Shown: positions 59,392 to 64,000 of the stretch, piece after piece
How positions within the stretch are numbered: position 1 is the stretch's first letter
Layout: the number at the start of each line of letters is the position of its first letter
From: Sanghuangporus weigelae
Lineage: Eukaryota > Basidiomycota > Agaricomycetes > Hymenochaetales > Hymenochaetaceae
Reading direction: 5' to 3'
Assembly (NCBI GenBank): GCA_033182465.1
Contig: CP137324.1
Location: forward strand, 1,240,001 to 1,304,000
DNA length: 64,000 nt
The notes under the pieces: generated by a model
Seen by the model: only the letters and a program-made list of their open reading frames with translations
Databases searched by the model: none
What the model was told of the DNA's origin: nothing
Program-made: the position numbers and the translations under genes

Positions 59392-60391
59392 ATGTCTGTG
59401 TCAACTTTGGAGCCTGCGACTGTTCCTGTGCCGTTTCTAACGTTGTCTGGGAGTATCGTGAGGTCGATCTGGGTCACACTCGTGTCGGATAATCCTCTTG
59501 TCTGGAATCGCACCTATGGAAAACGGAACGAGCAAGCTGATGTGGAAGGCAGGGTGTACTATGATCTTTTCGAATTCGAATTGGTATGCTGAACCGGAAT
59601 AAAGGTCCTTACTATATCGTAGATGCACCCAGCAGGCAGATTGAGAATGGCAAAGCCATCATGGCTTCCTCGTCTATGCTAAAAAGTAAGCCATCAATTA
59701 TTCTACTCTTCGCTGGTCGAGATCCTAAGTGCCATGGCAGACTTCAAACCATACCTCATGACGGTTCGCATTCTCTCCCCAGAAGGCAAACCGATCGCCG
59801 GAGCGGAAGTCGACTGGTGGCAGTCTGATACGGCGGGGAATTACTACCATCGGACATACACTCTGCGCGGACGGGTGACTACAGATGAAGATGGATATGC
59901 CGAGCTACTCACCGTCGCGCCTGCACCATATGGGCCCGGCAAAAACGTCCAACGCGCTGCCCATTTCCATGTATGGATTCATGCGCCGCAGGCAGAGAAG
60001 GGACAAACTGCCTATGACGATCTAACGACTCAGATGTACGTTTGCGACGGGAATGACGCGAAGTTAATGGAGAACGACTTGTAAGTGGGATTCGATCCAG
60101 CCCGTAACATTGTGGTGTTCTTTCTGACAAACGACACGAAGCGTGAATTATATGCGGAAAGTTCGTCTAGGGAATATGGTCCATTCTTGGAGTCTACCGG
60201 ACAAGGATATCGACGAGGGTAGACCATTCAAGAACTTCCCCGAGCTCGAGTCAAGCGAGGTTATTACGCGCCAGCGTGTAGAATGGTGGAACGCAAAGCT
60301 TGCGCAGATGAATGATTCAGATCCAAGTCTCAAAATTGCGGCAGGAGCAACTACTGAGCTGCGTCTTAATGCAAAGACAGGATGGTTTTGA
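59392..60391 (+). CDS. Intradiol ring-cleavage dioxygenase (catechol dioxygenase-like)
   Basis: Non-haem Fe(III) enzyme that opens catechol-type rings between the hydroxyls, in breakdown of aromatics such as lignin products. Four exons (59392-59452, 59605-59685, 59741-60080, 60142-60391) keep frame and give 243 residues. Seen: PYYIVDAPSRQIENGKAIMA, YLMTVRILSPEGKPIAGAEV, DWWQSDTAGNYYHRTYTLRG (first ligand Tyr region), TTDEDGYAELLTVAPAPYGP (second Tyr) and RAAHFHVWIHAP (the two ligand His). The last exon reads VRLGNMVHSWSLPDKDIDEG. It lacks the N-terminal dimer domain of hydroxyquinol and catechol 1,2-dioxygenases and has no signal peptide, so it is the short intracellular type. The 152-nt first intron was chosen because it alone joins the motifs in phase. 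Confidence 0.82.
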
Positions 60392-60825: not shown

Positions 60826-63800
60826 ATGTCCGCCTCGAACATTGACCTGCCGACGCCAGGCCCGGAGTCACCGCGCGCACCGCGCAAGCCATACCGCTTT
60901 GCGACACTATGTGCGACTGTAGAGAATCCGGACATGAAGGATCAATATTCGGCGAGCTCTGTGCCGATATACCAGACTGCTACTTTCAAGGGCGTCTCAG
61001 GCCAGTATGACTATACGCGCAGTGGTAACCCGACCAGGAGCCATCTTGGTGAGTACTGCATACATGCTTGTACTTTCGACGCAGCTTTGACGCGGATCCA
61101 TTGCACTTTTTTTTTTGTGATGCAGAACATCACCTCGCAAAAATTTCCTCGGCGGAGCACGCATTCGTCGTATCGTCCGGAATGGCTGCTATGGATGTGA
61201 TTACTCGCGTGCTGAAGCCTGGCGATGAGGTGATTGCAGGCGACGATCTGTATGGAGGGACCAACCGCCTCCTAAGCTTCCTCAAGTCACACGGTGGTGT
61301 CATTGTTCACCATGTCGACACGACGAACGACGAGAGTATTATCCCATATGTCAAAGCGGGAAAGACAGCGATGGTCATGCTCGAGAGTCCGACGAATCCG
61401 TTGCTGAAAATTGCAGACCTTGCAAAGATTTCGGCGCTTGTGAAGGAACGAGCGCCGGAGGCCATCATTGTAGTCGACAACACGATGATGAGCCCATACC
61501 TCCAGAAACCTCTTGAACATGGCGCGGACATAGTTTACGACAGTGCAACTAAGTATTTGAGTGGTCATCACGATCTTATGGCTGGCGTCATCACTTGCAA
61601 CCGCGATGATCTCGCAAAGGTAATTATTCTCTCGAACTCGCATTTTTCCTTCTTCTCTACGATTTGATCGGAAAGCTGACCCAAAGAAAAAATGCAGCAA
61701 ATGGCTTTTACTATAAACTCTGTCGGCAATGGCCTTTCGCCGTTTGATTCTTTCCTTCTTCTGCGTGGAACGAAGACGCTAGCAGTGCGTATGGATCGCC
61801 AACAGTCTTCGGCGATGGCCGTCGCAACTATGCTTGATCGTCTTGGCTTTACAGTCCACTATCCAGGTTTGAAGGGTCACCCTCGCCGTGAAGTCCATGA
61901 GCGCATCGCCAGTGGGGCTGGCGCTGTGCTGAGTTTTGAAACGGGCGACAAGGCACTTAGTGAGCGCATCGTTGGGGCAACTCGCCTTTGGGGTATCAGT
62001 GTCAGCTTTGGTTGCGTGAATTCCCTAATCAGCATGCCTTGTGTCATGTCGTACGTTCCCGTCTCTGTAATTCATTTACTCACTGAATACTGATCTTCTC
62101 TCATCATTCCAGGCACGCGTCTATCGACGCTGCTACGCGTGCGGAACGCGGATTGCCAGAAGATCTTATCCGGCTCTGCGTTGGTATTGAGGACACGGAT
62201 GATCTCCTAGATGATCTTGAACATGCATTGCTCGAGGCTGGCGGCATTACGCTCGAACAGGGTGTTGACGGCCATCATTATGTTCGAGCCTCACTGAAAC
62301 GCGAGGGTCACGCGATCAGTCGCGCAGTTGAGAAGCTTGCACTCAGCGAGCCCGAAAGTCGCCATAAAGATGAGAGAGAATGGTTTGTCAGTGCTCCTGG
62401 CAAAGTCATCTTGTTCGGTGAACATGCAGTTGTGCATGGCGTTGTGAGTATTTTAGTGACAGCTGAGATGCTCGCCTGAGTTGACCCGCTTAATATGAAT
62501 AGACTGCACTCGCCGCATCGGTAGATCTGCGATGCTATGGCCTTACTACTCCCCGTAAGGACAACAAAATATCCGTCCATTTCACGGATCTTGCAGGTTA
62601 TCGTCATGAGTGGAATATTGACGAGCTTCCCTGGGACGCTGTAACATACATTTCTCCTGGAACGAACCATCCGGACACGCTTGATCCAAAGCTAATCGAG
62701 GCAATCTCTACCCAGGCGCTCCCACTTTCCATACATGACTCTCCGACTGCACGGACCGCAGCTCTGACTTTCCTCTATCTGTACATGACGCTCGCCGGTG
62801 ATGTGAGACCTGCAATACACTTCAGTGCGCGTAGCACACTTCCTGTTGGTGCAGGTCTCGGCTCCTCTGCATCCTTCTCATCCTGCGCTGCAAGCGCCTT
62901 GTTGCTCGTTCTGAAGCGCGTGTCCGTACCGTCTCGGCCTGCTCCAACCGTGCCCCCGATTGGTCCGGAGCACCCTGGGCATATTCACGTCAGCCATCAA
63001 GGAAGACGTGCACTTCCTTCGGACGTAGCGGAGGAAATTAACCGATGGGCCTTCGTTGCTGAGAAGGTGCTCCATGGAAATCCTAGTGGAGTGGATAACT
63101 GCGTTTCTGTGTTCGGTGGCGCTCTTGCGTACACACGTCCCGGTTTTGGAAAGAAAAGCGGGATGGATCCTATTCACGGGTTAGTCCTTGACATATGACT
63201 GCTTACTTTACTCTGACTAGTGCATGCTACAGGTTCAAGTCTTTGAAATTCTTGCTTGTAGACACGAAGGTTCCAAGAAATACAAAAGCCCTCGTCGCCG
63301 GCGTGGCACTGAAAAAGCAAAACGTGAGTTTTGAAGATTTATATGCCGGGATACTTACTGACTATATCTGATCTTCAGGAGCCTGAATATGTTGAAGGTT
63401 TGCTGGAAGCAATTCAAACTATCAGCAACGAGGCACGTCGCATACTCGCTGACCCGGATCTTCCGCGTGGAGAGCAGCTTAAAGGACTCGAAGTATGTCT
63501 TTTGCATAGTGGATCTGGACAGGGCCTTGACGTATCCTTTCAGAGCCTTATCAACGAGAATCACGCGCATTTGCGTGACCTAGGTGTCTCTCATCCTGCA
63601 CTAGAGGCAATCAAATCAAAGACGGCAAGTTACAACCTCCAGACCAAGCTGACTGGCGCCGGAGGGGGCGGATGCGCGGTGACATTAGTTCCGGACGGTA
63701 AGCCATTGCTGTCTCAGGATATTCTGCCTGCAAACTAACGGTTTCTCCTCTCCTTATTGCTTTGTCATTCACCGATATTTTATCCTGTTTCTGCATCCAG

Positions 63801-64000
63801 GATTCTCCGAAGACCAGCTAAAGCAGCTAATGAGCGAGCTACGAGCAGACGGCTTCGAGCCGTACCTGACATCAGTCGGTGGATCCGGAGTCGGTGTTCT
63901 CTCGCCGCACGCCGCGTCGGATGAACCTCACGTCACTGCTTACGCTTTGCCCGTGACTCCACCAGAAACTCCCGGCGTTCGGGAAGACGTGGCTCAAGCC
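60826..64000 (+). CDS. Cystathionine beta-lyase / mevalonate kinase fusion (runs off right edge)
   Basis: Nine exons seen (60826-61048, 61126-61619, 61698-62050, 62113-62443, 62503-63179, 63233-63323, 63379-63492, 63544-63697, 63801 to beyond 64000), all in phase, about 879 residues so far. Residues 1 to about 410 are a PLP gamma-family lyase: VPIYQTATFKGVSGQYDYTR, SGNPTRSHLE, FVVSSGMAAMDVI, GDDLYGGTNR, and the PLP-lysine motif YDSATKYLSGHHDLMAG. It ends with LIRLCVGIEDTDDLLDDLEH. With no stop it runs through about 60 residues into mevalonate kinase: FVSAPGKVILFGEHAVVHGV, LPVGAGLGSSASFSSCAASA, the region around NPSGVDN, and KLTGAGGGGCAVTL. Known roles: cystathionine to homocysteine, and ATP-dependent mevalonate phosphorylation. 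There is no in-frame ATG between the lyase end and the kinase motif. Confidence 0.88.

Follow-up and report, generated by a model that had tools for sequence, protein, structure and literature searches.

A predicted cystathionine beta-lyase and mevalonate kinase fusion gene in Sanghuangporus weigelae, a member of the known metC-MVK family of basidiomycetes

The last gene of the window, i.e., the 64,000 nt stretch of S. weigelae contig CP137324.1 at positions 1,240,001–1,304,000, encodes a predicted protein in which a cystathionine beta-lyase is followed by a mevalonate kinase. Sequence comparison indicates that the gene is very probably (probability of about 0.93) an orthologue of the known metC-MVK (STR3-ERG12) fusion, and that the protein is bifunctional with independent sites. 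The gene is an unexceptional representative of a fusion family that is already in the literature. The initial annotation took the fusion to be undescribed. This is incorrect, as the available portions of the papers show the fusion in print since 2012 (PMC3342255, PMC3468542) and again in 2013 and 2014.

Gene structure

The fusion gene is on the + strand at positions 60826–64087 and comprises nine exons, bordered by AG/GT (Table 1). The spliced frame encodes one predicted protein of 907 residues and 97.6 kDa. The gene overruns the window: positions 64001–64087 hold its last 28 codons and the TGA stop, which ends 87 bases beyond the window.

Intron 7 is 51 bases in length, which is a multiple of three, and contains no stop; comparison with related sequences brings it to light. 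A model of eight exons and 924 residues was rejected in that its 17 read-through residues of intron 7 are absent from the relatives P0001 and P0002. This absence shows that the nine in-phase exons originally proposed are right. A plasmid search with exon 4 gave no match, as expected.

The neighbouring gene upstream looks like an intradiol ring-cleavage dioxygenase because positions 59746–60084 (+ strand), just upstream of the fusion gene, match Pfam Dioxygenase_C (PF00775, 58.6 bits). The frame at positions 60128–60391 has no match in Pfam.

Table 1. Exons of the lyase and kinase fusion gene (positions in the window; residues in the predicted protein)
Feature	Positions	Strand	Content
Exon 1	60826..61048	+	ATG, GTGAGT donor; lyase N-terminus, residues 1-74
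Exon 2	61126..61619	+	Lyase; holds PLP lysine K217, identical in 120/120 fusions
Exon 3	61698..62050	+	Lyase
Exon 4	62113..62443	+	Lyase C-terminus, linker (~400-445), kinase N-terminal motif with K454 and E460
Exon 5	62503..63179	+	Kinase; GLGSS motif (S589), E654, D665
Exon 6	63233..63323	+	Kinase
Exon 7	63379..63492	+	Kinase; end set from comparison with P0001 and P0002
Exon 8	63544..63697	+	Kinase; LTGAGGGGC motif
Exon 9	63801..64087 (window part 63801..64000)	+	Kinase C-terminus, tail, TGA stop

The joint of the two enzymes

The joint falls inside exon 4 in a single open frame. The finding of the initial annotation that this exon carries the APGKVILFGEHAVVHG motif of the kinase as well as the lyase C-terminus, within a single frame, is confirmed, and the exon has AG/GT borders. 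The protein layout is a lyase at approximately residues 34–399, a linker of approximately 46 residues and a kinase at approximately 446–851. A linker of about 60 residues had been proposed, but the length is nearer 46, as the lyase profiles end at residues 396–399 and the kinase is taken from residue 446. From position 62087 to the kinase motif the exon 4 frame is without ATG, as had been noted, and residues 357–561 are free of methionine. An in-frame internal start would therefore cost the kinase both K454 and E460.

Among 120 fusions (P0001–P0120) the linker has a length of 34–53 residues, and a methionine is present in the linker of 26. In an alignment of 26 rows the linker appears by eye to be longer in five smut-group fungi (Sporisorium, Meira, Exobasidium, Tilletia and Violaceomyces) and not longer in two Malassezia. 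Both edges of the linker are conserved although its sequence and length vary.

The lyase and kinase halves

The lyase half matches PF01053 at residues 34–396 (423.6 bits). The score with TIGR01329, a cystathionine beta-lyase model, is 541.4 bits versus a curated cut-off of 487.5 when the 924-residue model including the intron 7 read-through is scored; this is far beyond chance and upholds the identification of the N-terminal half. The best solved relative is cystathionine beta-lyase 1ibj, which we take to be the Arabidopsis enzyme. The motifs are aligned, but the chain of 1ibj is unfused, unlike the S. weigelae protein. Lyase sites Y63, R65, Y117, D192, K217 and R377 are identical in all 120 fusions, and a further lyase tyrosine, Y61, is conserved in 114 and replaced by F in six. 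The PLP lysine and the active-site Tyr, Arg and Asp positions are assumed here to have their catalytic role.

The kinase half matches PF00288 and PF08544 over their cut-offs. With TIGR00549, a mevalonate kinase model, it has 209.6 bits versus a curated cut-off of 163.05, also far beyond chance, and the C-terminal half is thus a mevalonate kinase by this model, in agreement with the first assignment. The best solved relatives are the mevalonate kinases 2r3v and 1kvk, presumably the human and rat enzymes, which align with residues 448–848 and 448–851, respectively. Motifs are aligned here as well, and the two chains are again unfused, unlike that of S. weigelae. K454, S589 and E654 are identical in 120/120 fusions, D665 in 119/120 (one gap) and E460 in 118/120 (one D, one gap). 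We take K454, E460, S589, E654 and D665 to correspond to rat Lys13, Glu19, Ser146, Glu193 and Asp204. All eleven lyase and kinase sites are identical in 25/25 fusions that were picked by hand, by name, to span the phylum.

Other kinases and lyases in the genome

The S. weigelae genome (33.87 Mb, 13 contigs) was searched exon by exon, a procedure that a very divergent copy could escape. With TIGR00549, three pieces match within the fusion gene and two more, both weak, match elsewhere. Four other GHMP places are nearest to homoserine kinase, diphosphomevalonate decarboxylase, phosphomevalonate kinase and galactokinase. The fusion is the sole predicted mevalonate kinase detected in the genome because these four places are nearest to other enzymes. 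A separate complete mevalonate kinase gene, which the initial annotation named, together with a lack of expression of the fusion gene, as evidence against its reading, was looked for genome-wide with TIGR00549 and the GHMP profiles, and none was found.

The place C7:372017 was considered as a second mevalonate kinase and rejected, as four successive pieces there match the galactokinase model (94.7, 32.1, 29.6 and 27.6 bits), versus a single piece for the mevalonate kinase model (29 bits). A 70-residue piece taken alone is ambiguous, with scores of 30.4 bits (TIGR00549), 29.5 (galactokinase) and 29.0 (homoserine kinase).

TIGR01329 ranks the fusion gene first in the genome, with pieces that sum to approximately 489 bits. 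The next gene, on contig C3, has pieces of 151, 70 and 56 bits, and its main exon scores better as a cystathionine gamma-synthase/lyase. An exon on contig C11 (L003) is nearest to O-acetylhomoserine sulfhydrylase. Further lyase-like matches are on C4 and C8 and at a second place on C11. From the two that were classified, those on C3 and C11 (L003), a second cystathionine beta-lyase appears unlikely.

Distribution of the fusion

A search with the 924-residue fused query gave 651 proteins and one with a Malassezia fusion gave 851; 120 were listed from each. Together they list 228 different proteins, and all 228 hold more than 70% of both halves, although both searches favour fusions because of the fused queries and a length limit. 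The check proposed at the outset, for proteins elsewhere with both domains, thus has a positive outcome. The closest among the matches listed is P0001 (96%), and the closest one with a name, a fusion from Fomitiporia in the Hymenochaetales, has 84%. Fusions are also listed from Phellinidium, Postia, Ganoderma, Suillus, Calocera, Bartheletia, Malassezia, Ustilago, Tilletia, Rhodotorula, Microbotryum, Mixia and Puccinia. Other than for Fomitiporia and Bartheletia, the placement of these genera within the phylum is our assumption. The fusion is widespread in mushroom, smut and rust fungi. No fusion from a Tremellomycete or Wallemia was noticed among the matches listed.

Three Lentinula fusion models (P0154, P0156 and P0158, 720–739 residues) are without the kinase S589 and the GAGGGGC motif, and in P0200, from Schizophyllum, the S589 position falls in a gap. 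These deviant models may represent model errors or decayed kinases.

The kinase half was also used as a separate query of 482 residues. In the best 120 of 7656 matches, which were listed, 46 proteins have at least 60 lyase residues, nine have a short lyase tail and 65 are without lyase. The lyase-less matches among these 120 with at least 48% identity start within the linker or further on, in the kinase, and are therefore fragments. Complete free kinases named among the matches listed come from Umbelopsis, Lipomyces, Exophiala, Cytospora and further fungi, all presumably outside Basidiomycota. P0199 (507 residues) and P0202 (476 residues) are complete kinases without lyase and have a tail that is basidiomycete-like by eye. 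They may represent a free kinase in some lineage, or cuts made by the gene caller.

P0133, an Inonotus obliquus entry with the name mevalonate kinase, starts within the kinase and has no N-terminal motif. It aligns from the start of exon 5 (residue 468), and the letters at its end resemble a read-through of intron 7. With this start and end, P0133 is apparently a truncated form of a fusion model.

Proposed function and alternative interpretations

One mRNA would be translated into one 97.6 kDa protein that stays uncleaved. The N-terminal, PLP-dependent cystathionine beta-lyase would split cystathionine to give homocysteine, and the C-terminal mevalonate kinase would provide phosphomevalonate for sterols and terpenoids. 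The two active sites would work independently on one chain at a fixed ratio of 1:1. The substrates have no common ground, so channelling is unlikely. An origin in an early basidiomycete is probable because the fusion is present in all three large subphyla, which the fusion-bearing genera presumably cover. It may have been fixed once and kept since then because both parts are needed and single-copy, which would make loss costly.

The apparent fusion could be an artefact of the gene model, with two adjacent genes that have their own mRNAs. The gene is known here from genomic DNA, in which a single overlooked intron could be enough to conceal a start. Such an artefact is most improbable, however, in that a single exon crosses the joint, its frame has neither an ATG before the kinase motif nor a methionine at residues 357–561, and 228/228 listed relatives have both halves in one protein. 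A fused unigene from Pleurocybella mycelia, described in the available part of PMC3720577, also argues against it. It is quite unlikely that the protein is translated whole and then cut in the linker to give two ordinary enzymes that act apart. The variation of the linker between conserved edges would fit with cleavage, as would its low identity to the S. weigelae protein; the mean share of the 120 fusions with an identical residue is 38% in the linker versus 82% (lyase) and 65% (kinase) in the two enzymes. But no conserved cleavage motif is seen by eye in the 26-row alignment, and uncleaved fusions commonly have variable, flexible linkers.

The initial annotation suggested that the fusion could link the supply of sulfur amino acids with the mevalonate pathway. 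A proposal of this kind is that the fusion couples the two pathways by allostery or shared oligomers, so that the sulfur amino acid state affects the activity or amount of the kinase. The fusion would then be kept throughout the phylum so that the methionine/homocysteine state sets mevalonate kinase output, or the reverse. Its maintenance in distant basidiomycetes, with no split in the 228 listed matches (where fused queries favour fusions), is consistent with coupling. The metabolites are unrelated, however, and leave nothing for channelling, conservation of the linker is poor, and an additional regulatory-type domain is not found with Pfam; coupling is considered unlikely. If true, it would represent a sulfur-isoprenoid metabolic link peculiar to basidiomycetes. 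An uncleaved protein with independent sites is the preferred interpretation. The lyase-free kinases P0199 and P0202, and the Lentinula and Schizophyllum models that deviate at S589, count as points against it. In the open-licence literature, in the portions available, no assay of the fusion and no test of sulfur-mevalonate coupling were found.

The fusion may explain why mevalonate kinase is sometimes missed by annotation in basidiomycetes, e.g., Ustilago maydis in KEGG; the available part of PMC7396576 gives mevalonate kinase as the only enzyme of the pathway that KEGG did not predict in this species. It may also explain faulty entries of a bare kinase such as P0133 from Inonotus obliquus. 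The available portions of PMC8058980, PMC7396576, PMC8420053 and PMC11982011 contain no mention of the fusion that we found.

Comparison with known systems

In the available text of a 2012 study (PMC3468542), STR3 with a C-terminal mevalonate kinase is reported for every basidiomycete examined other than Postia placenta, and a free kinase was not found in those examined. The order of the two enzymes is the same as in the S. weigelae fusion. The Postia placenta exception differs from what is found here, as P0036 (Postia placenta MAD-698-R-SB12) is a complete 909-residue fusion. Ascomycetes have the same two enzymes, STR3 and ERG12, but encoded by two separate genes (PMC3468542). Other sources, in the parts available, report the fusion in the Lignosus genome in 2014 (PMC4129116) and the fused Pleurocybella unigene, from a mycelial transcriptome, in 2013 (PMC3720577). 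Four Xanthophyllomyces peptides (PMC3224108, as far as the available text goes) are all in the kinase domain, and an intact fusion is not thereby shown.

The name metC-MVK was given in the 2012 genome paper on Ganoderma lucidum (PMC3342255), the accessible part of which describes the fusion in 12 basidiomycetes and not in Laccaria bicolor. There the lyase is first and the kinase second, with a mean length of approximately 886 residues, and the S. weigelae protein has the same order. The metC-MVK gene is described as the sole mevalonate kinase homologue of the genome, which agrees with the outcome of the kinase search in S. weigelae, and as the sole best match to metC. Compared with metC-MVK as described in that part of the paper, the S. 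weigelae gene, as predicted here, has no difference of substance and represents a further species with the fusion.
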